Source: Eubacteriales bacterium
GTDB lineage: Bacteria > Bacillota > JASUSC01
Direction: 5' to 3'
DNA length: 43,060 nucleotides
Assembly (NCBI GenBank): GCA_030446285.1
Contig: JASUSC010000007.1
Location: 1-43,060, forward strand
Shown: piece after piece, positions 5,222-28,903 of the stretch
Position numbering within the stretch: the stretch's first letter is position 1
How the letters are laid out: every line of letters starts with the position of its first letter
The notes under the pieces: model-generated
Seen by the model: only the letters and a program-made list of their open reading frames with translations
The model's database searches: none
What the model was told of the DNA's origin: nothing
Position numbers and translations under genes: made by a program

Positions 5222-5823
5222 CTAACCCCCGTCTTCTCCCACCACTGGCCATGCGGGTCCGCATCCGGCGGTTCACCAAGCTTGACGAAGTCTTCGATAG
5301 CGTTCGGTTAAGCTTATCAGGCTCTGGGCCGCCAGTAGGCGTTGTCCAGGGCTTTATTCATTGGCCCGTGGGCCATCCGTCATGGCCCTTTCCGGCTGTG
5401 GGCGTATTGGAGTACCACCACTCCACTAGCTTCAAAGCTCGCAGTTCCTCTGTCCGGGCCCGTACCCACTTCCACTGTTCCCAGAGACATGCCCGCAATC
5501 GTCACATTATCCACCCTTCTATCTCGCGAAAAACGCCGGCTGTCTCCGCTAAGGAGTAGTATCCTGCCCACCTCCGCAGATATTTGTTGATGTGTTCTAT
5601 GCGTTCCTGCATGTTTATGTCTGCCTGGGATCTCGCTGTGTTTTGCCAGCTTATCCAAACAGCTTAGCCTCATATGGGGCTCTTGTTCATCGAACCGTGG
5701 CTTTGCCTCCAGCTCCCTTCCGACCCCACCTCCCGGTAGGCGCCCTTCCCTTCAGCTAGCAGACTGGGCTGCCTCGCCTGCAGTGGACTTCCACCACCAA
5801 GTTGACGCCCATGCCGGGCGCAC
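5203..5823 (-). mobile_element. Internally deleted group II intron remnant (bacterial class C-like)
   Basis: Minus-strand 5' end GTGCGCCCGGCATGGGCGTC (to 5823), internal CACGGTTCGATGAACAAGAGCC, maturase C-terminus MQERIEHINKYLRRWAGYYSLAETAGVFREIEGWIM*RLRACLWEQWKWVRARTEELRALKLVEWW ... NKALDNAYWR ... SLISLTERYRRLRQAW*, then GAACCGCCGGATGCGGACCCGCATGG and a domain VI-like 3' end GACGGGGGTTAGTCACCCCTTCCTACTCGAT. No RT domain. Confidence 0.87.
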
Positions 5824-21317: not shown

Positions 21318-22145
21318 TCAACTTTCCAGGCAGGCTTTGAGCTCTTCCCCCGTCCTGGGGACAGTTGCTGACCTGTCTACCAAACCTTTTTTCCGCAAAG
21401 TCAGCCACATATCCAGTACCCAAGGACGGTGCAAGCCGGCCTGCCGGAGAAGGTCATCCTGCATGAATATTTCCACAGGGTCACCCTGGGCAATCACAGT
21501 GCCATCTTTCATTACCACCACCCGGTCGGCCCAAGCATAAGCTAAGTCCACGTCATGGGTGGATATTACCACCGTCACCCCCGCAGCCGCTGCCCGGTCC
21601 AGAAGCTCCATAACCTGCTGGCAGCCGTCCCGGTCCAGCCAGGCAGTGGGTTCATCACACACCACCACCTGCGGCTCCATGGCCAAAATACCGGCAATGG
21701 CTACCCGCTTTTTCTGGCCGTAGCTCAAATACTGGGGCGACCGGTCCTGAAAAGGGAGGGCTCCCGTCAATCGCAGAGCTTCCTCCACCCTCTTCCTGAC
21801 CTCATCTTCAGGCAGATCCAAGTTCAGCGGTCCGAAGGAGACATCCTGGTACACGGTAGCGGCAAAAAGCTGGGTATCCGGGTCCTGGAAAACCACCCCC
21901 ACAGTGCGCCGCAGCTCTTTCAGTTCCCGACGGCTGTACTTTATTTCCCTGCCCTCCAAGAGCACCCTGCCGTGGGTGGGTTTTAAGATGCCGTTAAAGT
22001 GAAGCAGGAGAGTGGTCTTACCAGAACCGTTGGGTCCGATGAGAGCCAACTTCTCTTTCCGCTCTACCTTAAGGTCTACCCCCCGCAGGGCGGTTGTCCC
22101 ATCTTCATACGTGTAGTGAACCCCGACCAGTTCAATTATGGCCAA
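21318..22145 (-). CDS. cbiO: Cobalt ECF transporter ATPase
   Basis: LIGPNGSGKTTLLLHFNGILKPTHGRVLLEG; VFQDPDTQLFAATVYQDVSFGPLNL; LSYGQKKRVAIAGILAMEPQVVVCDEPTAWLD. Confidence 0.94.
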   Translation of the reverse strand: MAIIELVGVHYTYEDGTTALRGVDLKVERKEKLALIGPNGSGKTTLLLHFNGILKPTHGRVLLEGREIKYSRRELKELRRTVGVVFQDPDTQLFAATVYQDVSFGPLNLDLPEDEVRKRVEEALRLTGALPFQDRSPQYLSYGQKKRVAIAGILAMEPQVVVCDEPTAWLDRDGCQQVMELLDRAAAAGVTVVISTHDVDLAYAWADRVVVMKDGTVIAQGDPVEIFMQDDLLRQAGLHRPWVLDMWLTLRKKGLVDRSATVPRTGEELKACLES

Positions 22146-22927
22146 AGGTACAACCTCCCCACCGTCAGAAGCACCGGCAGAAGGGCAAGGATGCCGATAT
22201 AGAAAGCCTCCTGCAGCCGGGGCAACCTCTCTTCCCGGTGATCAAGGAATCTTATTTCCCCCTCGTAACCGCGTGCCTCCATAGCCGTATAAAGTTTGTT
22301 TCCCCTGTCCAACGTATGGACGAAAAGGCGCGCTGTGAGGAGGGAGAGGGAACGCATGCCTTTCTGCGGGCTGCTGTAGCCCAAACGCGCATCCTGGGCA
22401 CGGTAAATTTGCCCGGCGGTTTCGAGAAGGGTAAACAAATAGCGGTAGGTAAGAACCATGAGTTCGCTGAGAAGGGACGGAACGCGCAGACGCCGTAGCA
22501 GGGCAATTAGGTCAGACACCGGTGTGGTGAGAATAAGCAGGTAGAGGCTGGCGACAGCGCCTAACGAGCGGAAAAAGAGGGTGGTGGCCGTCTCCCACCC
22601 ATTGGGAGTTACGACCAAAGTAACCGGTCCCAGGGAAAATTGAGCCAGAGCCCTTCCGCTTCCGTTCCCGGCGAGGTCAAAAAGAACGGCAGCACACCCG
22701 CTGCCGAGGAAAAACACCGGCAGGAAGAGAAGGCGCAAGTAGAAACGCCAGGGAATCCTCGCCCCGGCAACAAGAAGAAACGTTGTGGTCACGAGGACCA
22801 GAAGCGGGATAGTAAAGTTATGAGCGAAAAGGGAAAGCAGTAGATAAGTAATGCTCAAGGCCACTTTAAATCCAGCCGAAAAGTGGCTCCAGCGATTGTG
22901 AGCGGCGTAATAATCAATGTTCAGCAT
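22136..22927 (-). CDS. cbiQ: Cobalt ECF transporter transmembrane protein
   Basis: MLNIDYYAAHNRWSHFSAGFKVAL; AQDARLGYSSPQKGMRSL; YTAMEARGYEG. Start chosen at the ATG with SD rather than the longer ORF start at 23035. Confidence 0.9.
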   Translation of the reverse strand: MLNIDYYAAHNRWSHFSAGFKVALSITYLLLSLFAHNFTIPLLVLVTTTFLLVAGARIPWRFYLRLLFLPVFFLGSGCAAVLFDLAGNGSGRALAQFSLGPVTLVVTPNGWETATTLFFRSLGAVASLYLLILTTPVSDLIALLRRLRVPSLLSELMVLTYRYLFTLLETAGQIYRAQDARLGYSSPQKGMRSLSLLTARLFVHTLDRGNKLYTAMEARGYEGEIRFLDHREERLPRLQEAFYIGILALLPVLLTVGRLYLWP

Positions 22928-23246
22928 AGTCTTCCGCTCCCCGCCGGTTTTTCTCCCCGGTTCCCACCTTCTTCCCCCGGTAATAACCGATGAAGTAACC
23001 GATGAAAGCGCTCCCAGCCGCCGCCTGCAGGGCAAACAGGAAGGATTCTACTTCCCCGCTGGGTGGTTCCCATAGAGGTTCTGTCCAGGGCTTGTAACCC
23101 GGAGCAAGATCGTTTATCGCCTTCTCCGCCTGCTCATCGGCACCGGCAAATTCGGCTTCCCGGTGCAAGACGAGAGGAGCGAAGGCAAGAAAAGCCGCCA
23201 GCAGAGCTATCAGAAGGGTGATCCATTTTTTGCCGCCGGAAGCCAT
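22914..23246 (-). CDS. cbiN: Cobalt transport protein CbiN
   Basis: FAGADEQAEKAINDLAPGYKPWTEPLWEPPSGEVESFLFALQAAAGSAFIGYFIGYYRGK. Confidence 0.93.
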   Translation of the reverse strand: MASGGKKWITLLIALLAAFLAFAPLVLHREAEFAGADEQAEKAINDLAPGYKPWTEPLWEPPSGEVESFLFALQAAAGSAFIGYFIGYYRGKKVGTGEKNRRGAEDYAEH

Positions 23247-23998
23247 TATTTGCTCCCCCCTTCGCCGCTTATTACGGAAAGCTCCATGAGTTCGTTACGG
23301 TTGTGTTCCCGCAGGAAATTGAAAACAAGGGCGGTTAACAGGCCTTCGCTGATGGCCAGGGAAATCTGGGTTACGGCAAAGATACCGGCGAATTTCACCA
23401 GGGAGGCCAGCACTCCACCGTGGGCAGCGGGATAGGCCAGGGCCAGCTGGAGGGAAGTAACCAGGTATGTAGCCAAATCTCCCAGCATCGCCGCCAGGAA
23501 TACCGCCACGGCAGGCGAAGCGCGGCGGGTCAGGCGGTAAACAAAGTAGGAAACCACTGGTCCTGCCACGGCCATGGAAAAAGCGTTAGCTCCTAAAGTA
23601 GTCAGCCCGCCGTGAGCCAGCAGAAGGGCTTGGAAAAAGAGCACGATAAAACCGATTACCGAGGTAGCCGCCGGGCCGAAGAGGACAGCTGCCAGTCCTA
23701 CTCCTGTTGGATGGGAACAACTACCGGTAACGGATGGGATCTTAAGGGCCGAAAGGACGAAGGCAAAAGCACCAGCCAAACCCAGAAGAATCTTAATACG
23801 GGGATTCTGGCGGGTAACCCGGCGCAGTTGCCAGAGACCATAGAGAAGAAATGGCAACACCACAACCCACCATCCCGCAGCCCAGGCGGGAGGCAAAAAC
23901 CCTTCCATAATGTGCATGGCCATGGCGTAGGAAGGCCAGAGGGCAAAGGTTAAGAAAACGGTAAGCAAAAAGAGCACGGCAGTTTTTTTCCTGCCCAT
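23246..23998 (-). CDS. cbiM: Cobalt ECF transporter S component CbiM
   Basis: [49 protein letters not shown]. Confidence 0.95.
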
Positions 23999-24024: not shown

Positions 24025-24792
24025 CTAATCGTTCTTTTCTATCTCCTCCAGAAGCTCTTCAGGAGTATAAAACTCATTTTCACGCGGCGGCTTGCGAGTT
24101 ATAACTACCACCGGTATTTGCAAATCGAGAGCAGCAGCTACTTTGGTGTCGGTTCCACCCGCCGCCCCGGTATCTTTGGTTACCACTACCGAAGCCCGGC
24201 AGGCTTTGAACATGGCCCGGTTGAGTTCGCGGGAAAAGGGCCCCTGCATGGCAATAATGTCCCGTTGGTTTATGCCTAAATCCTGTACTTTTTTGATAAC
24301 TTTGTAATCCGGCAACACCCTGACAATCAGACGGCAGTCCTTGGTATAAAAGCTGTTGACAAAGAGTTCGAGATTGTAACTGCCAGTAGTAAGGAAAATA
24401 GTCTTTCCTAAAGAGGCGGCTTTGGCCGGGGCTTCCTCCCACGTATAGACTCGGTGAATGAGAGGATGAGGCGTAGCCACTGCCGCCGGCCGGGAAAAGC
24501 GGAAATAGCGCCAGCCCTTTTTCCGGCAGAGCTCCCGCACCCGCTCAGACAACTCCTCGTCAGTGAAAAGGCGGGACGCGTCAACTACCGTCCTTACTCC
24601 TTTCGCCGTCAATGCCTCTCCCAGTTCTCCGCCAGATCGTCCCCCCCAGAAGCAGATAAAATCCGCTCCGCTGCCCTCCGCCAGTTGCCGGCCGTAATCG
24701 TTCCACACTACCGCAAGTACTTGATGGCCTCTTCTTTTTAACTGGAAGCTGATTTCTTTTCCTTCTTTACTGTTGATCATTACGGCAATCAT
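24025..24792 (-). CDS. cobK: Precorrin-6A reductase
   Basis: [82 protein letters not shown]. Confidence 0.87.
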
Positions 24793-24825
24793 TTTTCATC
24801 CCTTTCTGGAACAAATTCCCACAAG

Positions 24826-24884
24826 AAAAAGACGCCTATTCCAATCAGCACTCACCTCCCGGAAGTGTGATTAGAACAGGCGTC
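24826..24884 (-). terminator. Terminator of the second leader element, upstream of cobK
   Basis: Minus strand GACGCCTGTTCTAATCACACTTCCGGGAGGTGAGTGCTGATTGGAATAGGCGTCTTTTTC: a roughly 21-bp stem with a T-tract. Confidence 0.85.
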
Positions 24885-24995
24885 CTGTCATCTCAGGGTC
24901 ATCACACTTTTCCGGTCATATCCACGTCGGAAAAGTGCTTGCCGTCGTGACAGATTTCCTTTAAGCCCTGTCCCCCGGGACAGGGCACCCGTTCC
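24870..24995 (-). ncRNA. Divergent cobalamin-riboswitch-like leader element
   Basis: Shares TTTAAGCCCTGT and GGGCAC (+ strand, 24960-24971 and downstream) with the canonical riboswitch, and a similar 3' part (GAACAGGCGTCCTGTCATCTCAGGGTCA versus GAACAAGCAGGTCTCCTGGCTCGGGTTCA). Internal stems CTGTCA/TGACAG and CACTTTTCC/GGAAAAGTG. Confidence 0.6.
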
Positions 24996-25019
24996 CTAAA
25001 CCGTAATTATCTTTGGAAC

Positions 25020-25050
25020 AAATAAATGCCCTTCCCGCAGGGGAAGGGCA
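25020..25050 (-). terminator. Terminator of the first (canonical) cobalamin riboswitch
   Basis: Minus strand TGCCCTTCCCCTGCGGGAAGGGCATTTATTT. Confidence 0.8.
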
Positions 25051-25099
25051 GAAAAACCTCCTTTTACCTTCCCATCCGCGTGGGAGGTACTGCCGTCCC

Positions 25100-25275
25100 G
25101 GAACAAGCAGGTCTCCTGGCTCGGGTTCACTGCCCCCTGCCCCTTCCCAGCTCGACGCCAGTGGGATAATGCAGGTGGGCTCCCCCTCACAGTGGCGGGA
25201 CCGCGCCGGATTTGCACCGGCTTCCCTTTTAAGCCCTGTTTCTTTGCGGGCACTTGCTCCGGTAAGGTTATTCAG
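25100..25275 (-). ncRNA. Cobalamin riboswitch
   Basis: Minus strand GGGCTTAAAAGGGAAGCCGGTGCAAATCCGGCGCGGTCCCGCCACTGTGAG...GAGCCAGGAGACCTGCTTG; matches the known cobalamin aptamer core and B12 box. Confidence 0.96.
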
Positions 25276-25542: not shown

Positions 25543-26367
25543 TCACTTTCCTCGCAGGTGTTTTTTTAAAAAAGCAACTCCTTCATCTATCGTCAGGGGA
25601 AGGGGATCAACCCCGGATATACCGGCCTGGAAAAACAGCTTCCATACGGTGGGATAATCCAAAGAAGCTTCTTCCACCACCGCCGGATCGGTAAGAAGGC
25701 GTCTGTCACCGTGTCGTAAGACAGAACCTTCCTTGAATACCACCACTTCCTCCGCCCACTCTACCGCAAAATCTACATCGTGGGTAGCCACAACCACCGT
25801 AGTTCCTTCGCGGTGCAGAAGGTTGAGAATTTCCGTAAGCTCCCGCTTCCCCGCTGGGTCTAGGTAGGCCAGGGGTTCATCAAGGACTATTATCTCCGGT
25901 TCCATGGCTAAAACGCCGGCAATGGCTACCCTTTTCTTCTGCCCGTAACTCAGGTGCTGGGGAGGCTTGCGGGCGTAGGAAAGCATCTGCACCGCCTGAA
26001 GAGACCGTTCTACCCTTCTCTCTACTTCTTCTGCCGGTAGTCCCAAATTTTCCGGCCCGAAGGCAACATCATCCCATACCGTAGGAGAAAAAACCTGATC
26101 ATCTGGGTCTTGAAAAACTAATCCTACCTTCTGGCGGACAGCCATCTCATTCCCTTTTTTTACTTCTATGCCGGCAACCTTTACCGTACCCCTCTGGGGT
26201 AAGAAGAGAGCATTGAGGTGAAGGACAAAGGTGGACTTACCAGCCCCGTTTGGCCCTAAAATGGCTACCTTGCGCCCCTTTGGCAGACGCAGATTGACGT
26301 TTCTTAACGCGATGGTACCGTCCGGATAAGTGTGACAAAGCCCTTCTACTTCAACAGCCCAGTCCAC
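25543..26367 (-). CDS. cbiO: ECF transporter ATPase (second, nickel-type locus)
   Basis: VEVEGLCHTYPDGTIALRNVNLRLPKGRKVAILGPNGAGKSTFVLHLNALF; LSYGQKKRVAIAGVLAMEPEIIVLDEPLAYLDP. GTG start at 26367 with SD GGGAGG preferred over the ORF-track start at 26664. Confidence 0.92.
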   Translation of the reverse strand: MDWAVEVEGLCHTYPDGTIALRNVNLRLPKGRKVAILGPNGAGKSTFVLHLNALFLPQRGTVKVAGIEVKKGNEMAVRQKVGLVFQDPDDQVFSPTVWDDVAFGPENLGLPAEEVERRVERSLQAVQMLSYARKPPQHLSYGQKKRVAIAGVLAMEPEIIVLDEPLAYLDPAGKRELTEILNLLHREGTTVVVATHDVDFAVEWAEEVVVFKEGSVLRHGDRRLLTDPAVVEEASLDYPTVWKLFFQAGISGVDPLPLTIDEGVAFLKKHLRGK

Positions 26368-27170
26368 AATAAACCTCCCATTTCCATGCTGAATAGAAAG
26401 GCCAAAGCAACGGTAACACCCAGCCCAAAAACCAGATCGGGTTTCTCCAGCCGCCAAGGAAAAGAACCTTTCCGCGGCAGAGCAGTCAGCCCTTCCCTCC
26501 CGTAGCCCCGGGCCTGCATGGCCAGCCAGACCCGCTGGCTGCGGGCGTAAGCCCGGACGAACAGGGCTCCCACCACTTCCGCCGTTTTCTGTCTGGTCCG
26601 CCCGTCCAGCAAACTCCGGCCGGGGCGGTAGCACCGGGCTGCCCGCGCCATCTTCATCCGACACACTTCATCGCCTAAAACCTCAAGGTAGCGCAGGGCA
26701 AACTCCATAATGGCCACTATCTCGCGGGGAACTCTTAGTCTCTGCAAACCCCGCAGCACCTCGTGCCGGGGAGTTGACAGCAGCAAAAGCATCATGGCCG
26801 TAAAAGCCGCCATCAACCGCAAGCTCAAAACCAGCGCTTTTTCTACACCGCGGTCAGTTACCGCCACCTGCCAGCTTCCTATCTCCCATGCTGCCAAAGG
26901 GACACCGGGGGTAATAAAGGGGAAAATGAGGAGGCTCGTAATCAGCAAGGGGAGGATAAGAAAGAGCCTCTTCCCGGCCTGTCGAAGGGAATGACCCTCA
27001 GCAACCAGCAGTAAAACAACCAATACAAAACCGGTTGCCAGTGCCGGCACGCTGTTAAGAGCAGCCAGCCCGGCAATAAACGCCGTAATGCCCGCTATTT
27101 TTACTTCCGGCTTCAGCCGGTGGAGCCATTTCCCTTCCCGTCCTTCGTGGCCGGACAGCATCCTCCCCAT
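26346..27170 (-). CDS. cbiQ: ECF transporter transmembrane protein CbiQ-like
   Basis: LHRLKPEVKIAGITAFIAGLAAL; LQRLRVPREIVAIMEFALRYLEVL; WLAMQARGYGREG. Confidence 0.9.
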   Translation of the reverse strand: MGRMLSGHEGREGKWLHRLKPEVKIAGITAFIAGLAALNSVPALATGFVLVVLLLVAEGHSLRQAGKRLFLILPLLITSLLIFPFITPGVPLAAWEIGSWQVAVTDRGVEKALVLSLRLMAAFTAMMLLLLSTPRHEVLRGLQRLRVPREIVAIMEFALRYLEVLGDEVCRMKMARAARCYRPGRSLLDGRTRQKTAEVVGALFVRAYARSQRVWLAMQARGYGREGLTALPRKGSFPWRLEKPDLVFGLGVTVALAFLFSMEMGGLLWTGLLK

Positions 27171-27189
27171 AAAAGACGGTCCCCCTTTT

Positions 27190-27402
27190 TTATTGTTCGC
27201 CTTCCTTCAGCTTTTCAATGATAATTTTGTGGTCGACCAGAGCCATTTCGGCAATCCGGCCTTTTATCATTTTCCGTTTGCCGAAGATGTTCTCCAGCAG
27301 AAGCATACCGTTTTCCGGTACCACCTTATCTACCGCTTCCAGGAGCAGTTCCAGCTGATCTCCTTTCCTGAGATAAGCATTGGCTTCACACACCGCTACC
27401 AC
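27190..27402 (-). CDS. CooT-family nickel-binding protein
   Basis: MVAVCEANAYLRKGDQLELLLEAVDKVVPENGMLLLENIFGKRKMIKGRIAEMALVDHKIII; characteristic size and N-terminal Cys. Confidence 0.88.
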   Translation of the reverse strand: MVAVCEANAYLRKGDQLELLLEAVDKVVPENGMLLLENIFGKRKMIKGRIAEMALVDHKIIIEKLKEGEQ

Positions 27403-27820
27403 CCCTCCTTTCCTGAATAATTTCCCGCAAGCGGACCACCATCTCGTCGGCCAGATGGGGCAGGGGTTCCTCCTTCACCCCTACGATGGTTACCCCCGAC
27501 CGGTTCAGGGGGAGGAGAAGCTTGATGGCCCTACTCGCTGCCACCGCTTCCGCCATGCGGGGAGTCATCTCCCCCATCATGGAATGGGCCAGAACAATCG
27601 CCAGAGTTCCGACAATCACATCCACCCGGCCGATGTTCTGCACCAGGGCATTTTCTCCCGTGGCCCCCTCATCGGCTCCAGCTTTCAGCATCTGCGCAGT
27701 AGCCATGGAGTTGGTGCCGAAGGCCCAGATCTCTACCTCATCGCAGAAAGCCCGGCGGATCCTGTCTACCAGTACCTTACCTATTCCCCCGCCCTGGCCG
27801 TCTACTACTGCTACAATCAA
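27386..27820 (-). CDS. DUF3842 family protein
   Basis: MIVAVVDGQGGGIGKVLVDRIRR...EIWAFGTNSMATAQMLKAGADEGATGENALVQN. Confidence 0.85.
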   Translation of the reverse strand: MIVAVVDGQGGGIGKVLVDRIRRAFCDEVEIWAFGTNSMATAQMLKAGADEGATGENALVQNIGRVDVIVGTLAIVLAHSMMGEMTPRMAEAVAASRAIKLLLPLNRSGVTIVGVKEEPLPHLADEMVVRLREIIQERRGGSGV

Positions 27821-28176
27821 AGGCTACCACCCTTGGCTCCCGGTCCCATCCCGGGTTTTCGGTCAGCGTAGTCACCGCTGCGGCGGAAAAGAATCTTACC
27901 AACCAGAACGAACAAAATAAAGGTAAGAAGAGTACCCACAACTCCAGCCAGGCTGCCGGCCAGGGTCTCGTTGGCCACGCCGGGCATGACATAGTCGGGA
28001 ATGGGAGATTTAATCACCTCTTTGCCCTCTCCCTTTTCCAAAAAGCCGTGGTCTTCCGCCACCCGCTCCAGACCATCGGGCTTGGTGGAAGCAAAAGGAC
28101 TCAGAAAAGCAGCCACTATTAAGGCTACCAGTAAACCGCCTATAACCCATTTCTGTCTCCTGCTCATTACCTTCAC
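27817..28176 (-). CDS. PDGLE-domain (CbiN-like) protein
   Basis: LSPFASTKPDGLERVAEDHGFLEKGE...IPDYVMPGV; two TM segments. Confidence 0.9.
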   Translation of the reverse strand: MKVMSRRQKWVIGGLLVALIVAAFLSPFASTKPDGLERVAEDHGFLEKGEGKEVIKSPIPDYVMPGVANETLAGSLAGVVGTLLTFILFVLVGKILFRRSGDYADRKPGMGPGAKGGSL

Positions 28177-28185
28177 CTCCAGCGA

Positions 28186-28830
28186 CTACCGCCTCATGCT
28201 AGCTGTACTACCCGTAATTTCCGGCAACATCTGAGTTCTGGTTAAATAAGCTAGAATAGCACCAGTTATCAGACCTTCTCCCGTGCCGATCAGCACGTGC
28301 CATCCCAACATGGCAGGTAAAACTACTTTCAGCGGCACCGTGCCGGAGACCGCTAACTCCAACGAACAGGCCGTAGCCGCCACCAGAACCGAGGCCGCTC
28401 CAGCCAGCAGAGCTGATACAAAAACCGGTACCTTTCTGCCGTCACCCAGCAGGCGGAAGATGAGATAACTGACCAGGGAACCGAGAACGGCCATGTTCAG
28501 CAGGTTGCTCCCCAGTGCCGTCACGCCGCCGTCCTGGAAGAAGAGAGCCTGGATTATTACCACCGTGGACATAACCAGCATACTACTCCACGGTCCTAGC
28601 AGGTAGGTAGCCAGGGCCGCCCCCAGGAGGTGGCCGGAAGTTCCACCGCCAACCGGGAAGTTCACCATCTGAGCAGCAAAAATGAAAGCTGCCATGACTC
28701 CCATCAGAGGTACCTGCTTCTGGTCCCCCGTTTCCCTGCTCTTCTTCACCGCCACGGCTAATGCTGCAGCGCTCATCACCGCCGTAGTTACTCCCGTCTT
28801 CAAGTCCACAAACCCGTCCGGAATGTGCAT
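28186..28830 (-). CDS. cbiM: ECF transporter S component CbiM/NikM-like
   Basis: MHIPDGFVDLKTGVTTAVMSAAALAVAVKK; AAQMVNFPVGGGTSGHLLGAALATYLLGPWSSMLVMS. Start at MHIPDG with SD GGAGGAGGGGG. Confidence 0.93.
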   Translation of the reverse strand: MHIPDGFVDLKTGVTTAVMSAAALAVAVKKSRETGDQKQVPLMGVMAAFIFAAQMVNFPVGGGTSGHLLGAALATYLLGPWSSMLVMSTVVIIQALFFQDGGVTALGSNLLNMAVLGSLVSYLIFRLLGDGRKVPVFVSALLAGAASVLVAATACSLELAVSGTVPLKVVLPAMLGWHVLIGTGEGLITGAILAYLTRTQMLPEITGSTASMRR

Positions 28831-28852
28831 TCTCTTTCCCCCTCCTCCAATA

Positions 28853-28903
28853 ATAAAAGCCATGAAAACTAGCCCTCCATCGGGCAGCCTTCATGGCTTT
28901 TTT
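28853..28903 (-). terminator. Terminator-like hairpin in the leader of the nickel-type cbiM
   Basis: Minus strand AAAAAAGCCATGAAGGCTGCCCGATGGAGGGCTAGTTTTCATGGCTTTTATTATT. Confidence 0.65.

Follow-up and report, generated by a model that had tools for sequence, protein, structure and literature searches.

The leader of cobK-cbiMNQO in the window (the whole 43,060-nucleotide stretch of Eubacteriales DNA analyzed here) raises the question of what a second structured RNA element, followed by its own terminator, does behind a canonical cobalamin riboswitch. A preliminary description of this leader had offered two answers, namely that the element is a diverged cobalamin-class aptamer with altered ligand specificity or that it is a decayed duplicate whose terminator still works. 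We evaluated these possibilities, together with others, based on the fold of the element, its homologs in related genomes, and the genes that it precedes.

Organization of the cobK Leader

On the minus strand, the leader reads canonical riboswitch, terminator 1, second element, terminator 2, and cobK-cbiMNQO, with each of the two tandem elements having its own terminator. A scan with the Rfam cobalamin models, as suggested in the preliminary description, identified the canonical aptamer (first switch) at positions 25089 to 25272 (-) (RF00174, 131.4 bits, E = 5.8e-33), in agreement with its earlier placement at about 25275-25100. Terminator 1, earlier placed at 25050-25020 (-), comprises a stem at 25050-25027 followed by a T-rich tail. 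The genes, all on the minus strand, are cobK (precorrin-6A reductase; 24025-24792; TIGR00715, 137.2 bits versus a cut-off of 129.85), cbiM (23246-23998; TIGR00123, 302.8 bits), cbiN (22914-23246; TIGR01165, 110.5 bits), cbiQ (22136-23035; TIGR02454, 171.3 bits), and cbiO (21318-22145; TIGR01166, 269.1 bits). Immediately upstream of the leader, at 25543-28863 (-), lies another, different cobalt/nickel ECF transporter set (CbiM-like, CbiQ, CbiO). Elsewhere in the window a group II intron domain was matched at 5555-5740 (-) (RF02001, 67 bits). A further canonical cobalamin riboswitch in the same genome (L033; G000:C79:16990-17204) has no second element and lies upstream of a ThiC-like gene that is probably involved in lower-ligand (bza) synthesis.

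The second element, which the preliminary description had placed at about 24995-24870, comprises an aptamer-like domain of P1, P2, and an inner arm that a covariance model (R1, described below) positions at 24997-24872 (-). The 5' strand of P1 (GGAACGGGU) lies at 24987-24995 and its 3' strand (GCCUGUUCU) at 24873-24881, with the helix GAACGGGU/GCCUGUUC pairing 24994-24987 with 24881-24874. P2 is a 9-bp hairpin (GCCCUGUCC/GGACAGGGC, loop CGGG; 24965-24986) followed by the conserved joining segment UUAAA (24960-24964), which is common to canonical cobalamin riboswitches. The inner arm is formed by CUGUCA (24948-24953) paired with UGACAG (24890-24885) and surrounds an inner hairpin (GCACUUUUCC/GGAAAAGUGU; 24904-24938), which corresponds to a helix (helix 4) that covaries in the family. 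On the 3' side of this hairpin is a GAUGA motif (24899-24903) that is also part of the Rfam cobalamin consensus. Terminator 2 (24826-24884), likewise located where it was first proposed, consists of a hairpin at 24884-24831 and a TTTTT run at 24830-24826. Its 5' arm includes the 3' strand of P1, an overlap that the preliminary description had not noted, such that P1 and terminator 2 are mutually exclusive.

The other sequence features originally noted were also recovered. The 12-mer ACAGGGCTTAAA is common to both elements (24971-24960 and 25239-25228), a CTGTCA/TGACAG stem encloses the CACTTTTCC/GGAAAAGTG hairpin, and the second element lacks both the B12 box and the P4 segment. When compared to dinucleotide shuffles, folding z-scores were -8.1 for the terminator 2 hairpin and -6.7 for the stretch comprising the element and terminator 2 (24820-25010); for the element without the complete terminator (24885-25010), z was -3.1 relative to shuffles. 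A 20-codon open reading frame with a good ribosome-binding site (24851-24789, -) lies within the 3' arm of terminator 2 and overlaps the start of cobK by ATGA. Inspection revealed early stops at the same place in relatives, and a leader-peptide role was rejected. In most relatives, a conserved GGAGGUG in terminator 2 resembles a Shine-Dalgarno sequence.

A Family of Second Elements Behind Cobalamin Riboswitches

With cmscan, the second element of the window matched nothing in the cobalamin clan at E values up to 10 and had no plausible match at E ≤ 10 to the NiCo riboswitch or any other RNA family described in Rfam; low-scoring matches to mir-3145, anti-hemB, and the L31 leader were taken as chance. 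BLASTN with the element against 100 genomes of the phylum gave no match beyond the two copies in the genome of the window. An exact pattern derived from the window yielded two matches in 299 genomes of the phylum, both by chance in unrelated DNA; it was absent from 84,980 species genomes. A family-consensus pattern, which proved too strict, yielded four matches, including in the metagenome-assembled genomes HGW-Firmicutes-8, DJKA51_ANT-F21_bin.18, and K_7_2_bin.50. Plain sequence searching is thus too weak to find relatives of the second element, and the view that it is an oddity of a single lineage, which these null results had suggested, was dropped once the cobK leaders of relatives were read. 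CobK was not found in viral contigs.

The other copy in the same genome (on contig C48) is 89% identical over 63 nt and follows the tail of a canonical riboswitch and a terminator. This leader (L031; G000:C48:1-540) lies upstream of codY and flgBC, and its second element has a long, altered 3' half and a poor P1. Contig C48 starts inside a riboswitch and contig C75 ends inside one, which may mean that they are neighboring contigs or that the assembly is in error here.

Among the 20 best CobK loci scanned in the phylum, 13 have a canonical riboswitch upstream of cobK, and all 13 of these encode a second element of common plan between the riboswitch and cobK. Eleven of these cobK leaders, all from other genomes, were used to build covariance model R1. 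A first MAFFT alignment had misplaced the inner hairpin of the window, and both the window and locus L047 were therefore kept out; the match of R1 to the window is consequently an independent test. R1 scored the window element at 51.8 bits (E = 1.2e-11), the C48 copy at 32.1 bits, and L047 at 26.3 bits.

A search of 398 genomes of the phylum with R1 yielded matches in 25. One of these (G050) was rejected as a carrier since its only match was a canonical riboswitch, leaving second elements in 24 genomes from 14 genera and 11 families, including Moorella thermoacetica; in a follow-up sample of Moorella, all 11 genomes had the element. The 24 carrier genomes encode about 160 RF00174 matches and 50 R1 matches, five of which are canonical riboswitches (27-43 bits) that, like the one in G050, were removed based on overlap with RF00174. 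Among the remaining 45 matches, 43 follow an RF00174 match on the same strand at a distance of 66-303 nt (median 96); of the other two, one is the C48 copy, where the end of the contig interrupts the riboswitch, and one is a low-scoring remnant that precedes a truncated cobK. The second element is therefore essentially always found behind a canonical cobalamin riboswitch, a distribution for which the tandem leaders used to make R1 were a biased first set and the genome search was unrestricted by place. The remnant (L142; G037:C13:50482-50637; 24 bits) has no RF00174 match upstream, and the cobK behind it appears truncated after about 35 codons and fused to an unrelated coding sequence. A triple tandem of one canonical riboswitch and two second elements was observed in HGW-Firmicutes-8 (L106:6341-6960) before a gene for a DUF2162 predicted transporter.

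Covariation and Descent from the Cobalamin Riboswitch

The preliminary description had called for a covariation test on homologous leaders and had held that its proposal would fail if there were no covarying homologs, no match to any cobalamin model, and no ligand-dependent change in probing or termination; covarying homologs exist, and the window copy has no match to the cobalamin models. Among 41 sequences, 91.9% of the cells in P1, P2, and the two inner helices are standard pairs versus 31-51% with slid partners. Compensatory, two-sided changes are present in 21 of 26 pairs and total 203 cells as compared to 70.5 in shuffles, counts that overstate the number of independent events because the model structure guided the alignment (A6), in which closely related Moorella sequences form a cluster. 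Across the family, eight of the nine P2 pairs vary on both sides, and compensations in P2 are visible already in an unfitted MAFFT alignment. Strong conservation is confined to P1 (GGU / GCCUrUuC), P2 with its YGAG-type loop (YGAG in most relatives, CGGG in the window), and UUAAA. The inner arm varies among second elements and is thus less conserved than a usual metabolite pocket, a degree of variation that would also fit a protein ligand or no ligand at all.

The second element and the cobalamin riboswitch have P2, J2/3, UUAAA, and 3' motifs in common, and the second elements at L105 (59.0 bits) and L118 (32.7 bits) still score above the RF00174 gathering cut-off. Another locus of the L127 copy (L097) scored 20.9 bits, and most other second elements scanned with RF00174 had no match at E ≤ 1. 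These observations support descent of the second element from the cobalamin riboswitch. Motifs of the B12 core tell the two apart: the B12 box (RCCRCTG) is present in all 42 upstream canonical riboswitches but in only two of 43 second elements, the UCCCG motif of L5 in 29 of 42 versus none of 43, and GAGACC in 34 of 42 versus none of 43. Conversely, GCCURU in the 3' strand of P1 characterizes 36 of the 43 second elements and none of the 42 canonical riboswitches. On inspection, neither a P13 following P1 nor an L13 was seen in second elements. Of the features that define the cobalamin class and that were checked, the window element has P1, P2, and the UUAAA joining segment and fails the rest. 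The loss of B12 motifs together with the presence of GCCURU indicates that the second elements are one family rather than the products of repeated, independent decay.

A Predicted Second Transcription Switch

In the window, GCCUGUUC can pair with GAACGGGU in P1 or with GGAAUAGGC in terminator 2. When the aptamer was folded by itself, the minimum-energy structure contained P1 in 41 of 43 members; terminator 2 captures the P1 strand once it is transcribed in 39, and both states, P1 and then terminator 2, are recovered in 38. In a subset of 33 of these members, the strand was captured by the terminator in 32, as compared to 19% when the downstream part was shuffled. A further, third hairpin was found in 25 members and is absent from the window copy; at about 20 of these 25 loci, complementarity of its 5' arm to the freed strand of terminator 2 exceeds that in about 90% of shuffles. 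This complementarity implies that formation of P1 would relieve both stops.

These data are consistent with a model in which a cobalamin riboswitch was duplicated and one copy would have lost the B12 core (B12 box, P5/L5, and L13) while retaining the P1-P2 switch module. The target would be RNA polymerases that have passed the B12-controlled terminator 1. If P1 is held, the 5' arm of terminator 2 would be occupied and transcription would run into the cobalt/corrinoid genes; if it is not, its 3' strand would be taken by terminator 2 and transcription would stop. In many relatives, the third hairpin would be tied to the same choice, since the terminator 2 strand, once freed, is able to pair with the 5' arm of this hairpin. 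In most aptamers the effector stabilizes P1. We presume that the stabilizing agent here is a ligand and not a protein or the upstream aptamer, and the layout predicts an ON switch behind a B12 OFF switch, with NOT B12 AND X as the likely logic; an effector that destabilizes P1 would invert the sign of control.

The genes immediately behind second elements encode CobK, CbiM, BtuF-type periplasmic binding proteins, S-layer/DUF4430 proteins that often adjoin a CbiQ-type protein, and the DUF2162 transporter. With the exception of a few loci that have no clear gene (L114, L126), they fit cobalt or corrinoid acquisition or synthesis almost throughout, which leads us to favor an effector that belongs to corrinoid metabolism. 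The most likely identity of X is a small molecule from that metabolism, but not the cofactor in its complete form; candidates include incomplete corrinoids, corrin precursors, and cobalt, any one of which we would name only with low confidence. S-layer proteins, most with DUF4430, lie behind the second element at L105, L108, L111, L117, L119, L122, L128, and L131; these recurrent proteins may be surface corrinoid-binding proteins.

Alternative Explanations

We consider it more likely than not that the second element is a conserved, duplicated regulatory RNA acting as an independent second transcription switch. One competitor, a decayed duplicate with a leftover terminator and no regulatory input, could account for the loss of the B12 core, and decay does occur, as evinced by the altered 3' half and poor P1 of the C48 copy and by the remnant in G037. 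Nonetheless, it is a highly improbable reading, and for the family the decay option of the preliminary description is excluded by covariation and conservation over 11 families, a conserved P1 sequence, and the retained exclusion between P1 and terminator 2. Terminator 2 might instead be a constitutive second brake on escape, with P1 only setting folding kinetics, as the displacement of P1 by terminator 2 in nearly all full-length folds and the want of an obvious conserved pocket would permit. It would be unexpected, however, for a constitutive brake to retain about 130 nt of covarying P1, P2, and inner arm, and the linked third hairpin suggests a controlled choice, rendering such a passive attenuator unlikely.

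The remaining alternatives accept regulation and differ in the effector. That the element still senses a complete cobamide through a minimal or altered pocket, such that a same-ligand tandem sharpens or widens the B12 response, is in keeping with its clear descent, with the RF00174 scores of L105 and L118, and with known AdoCbl/AdoCbl tandems (PMC9481103). However, nearly all members have lost the B12 box, L5, and GAGACC, L13 was not seen, and the P1/terminator wiring would have a cobamide turn the genes ON, opposite to the upstream switch; we regard this as improbable. Similarly doubtful is binding of a protein or docking on the upstream cobalamin aptamer, whereby the tandem position would reflect a physical partnership. 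No intact locus has the second element without an upstream riboswitch, whereas HMP-PP riboswitches are in tandem in only about 30% of cases (PMC6478431), and the inner arm is variable; such a partnership could explain both features of the second element. Yet a complete terminator stands between the two elements, the second folds well alone, and its conserved YGAG-type P2 tetraloop is, by inspection, not complementary to upstream loops. Returning to the independent switch, an altered ligand specificity of the putative aptamer, as first proposed, is plausible, and a second signal beyond B12 probably also controls these genes. The most specific form of this reading, an activating class derived from the cobalamin riboswitch that has lost the B12 pocket, senses another molecule of corrinoid or cobalt metabolism, and works only behind a B12 switch, has in our estimation slightly less than an even chance of being correct.

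Comparison to Known Systems

The second element resembles the cobalamin riboswitch (RF00174) in the order of P1 and P2, in UUAAA, and, in some members, in GAUGA and P6-like CUG/CAG motifs; it differs in the lack of the B12 box, P5/L5, GAGACC, and L13, and in that P1 rather than P13 competes with the terminator. In the literature searched, a single activating corrinoid riboswitch was found, that of cobT in Alkalihalobacillus halodurans (PMC10653944). It likewise belongs to a corrinoid regulon and is predicted to antiterminate upon stabilization, but it relies on an L5-L13 kissing loop and a P13 antiterminator, neither of which the second element has. The nearest working analog is the TPP/HMP-PP (thiS motif) tandem, in which an end-product OFF riboswitch with its terminator precedes a second aptamer that excludes a terminator of its own and responds to a precursor as an ON switch, resulting in NOT A AND B logic (PMC6478431). 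HMP-PP aptamers, however, are a separate class, are embedded in the terminator, and occur in tandem in about 30% of cases (PMC6478431), whereas the second element descends from the first switch and is essentially always in tandem.

Tandems of AdoCbl with AdoCbl or other riboswitches also have two switches with an expression platform each, but their second aptamers belong to known classes (PMC9481103), and the second element of the window matches none in Rfam. No such pair is listed in a review of tandem riboswitches, which left out orphan partners that had been seen (PMC9481103), and the second element may therefore have been sighted previously without publication. The element is apparently undescribed in Rfam and the literature searched. 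Its layout suggests that it works like a second riboswitch, with a ligand as the presumed effector, and there is a fair chance that it represents a new riboswitch class.

Collectively, these findings point to a widespread second control step in the B12/cobalt regulon of many anaerobic bacteria that was seemingly overlooked because Rfam misses the second element. They also provide a traceable case of one riboswitch class becoming another regulatory RNA, in which members ranging from near-canonical through intermediate to fully diverged are extant. The presence of the element in M. thermoacetica, a cultured acetogen, makes work on its ligand and on termination feasible. The B12 riboswitch alone may not predict the expression of cobalt/corrinoid uptake genes and, if the new-class reading is true, these genes would be under NOT B12 AND X control in Moorella and its relatives.
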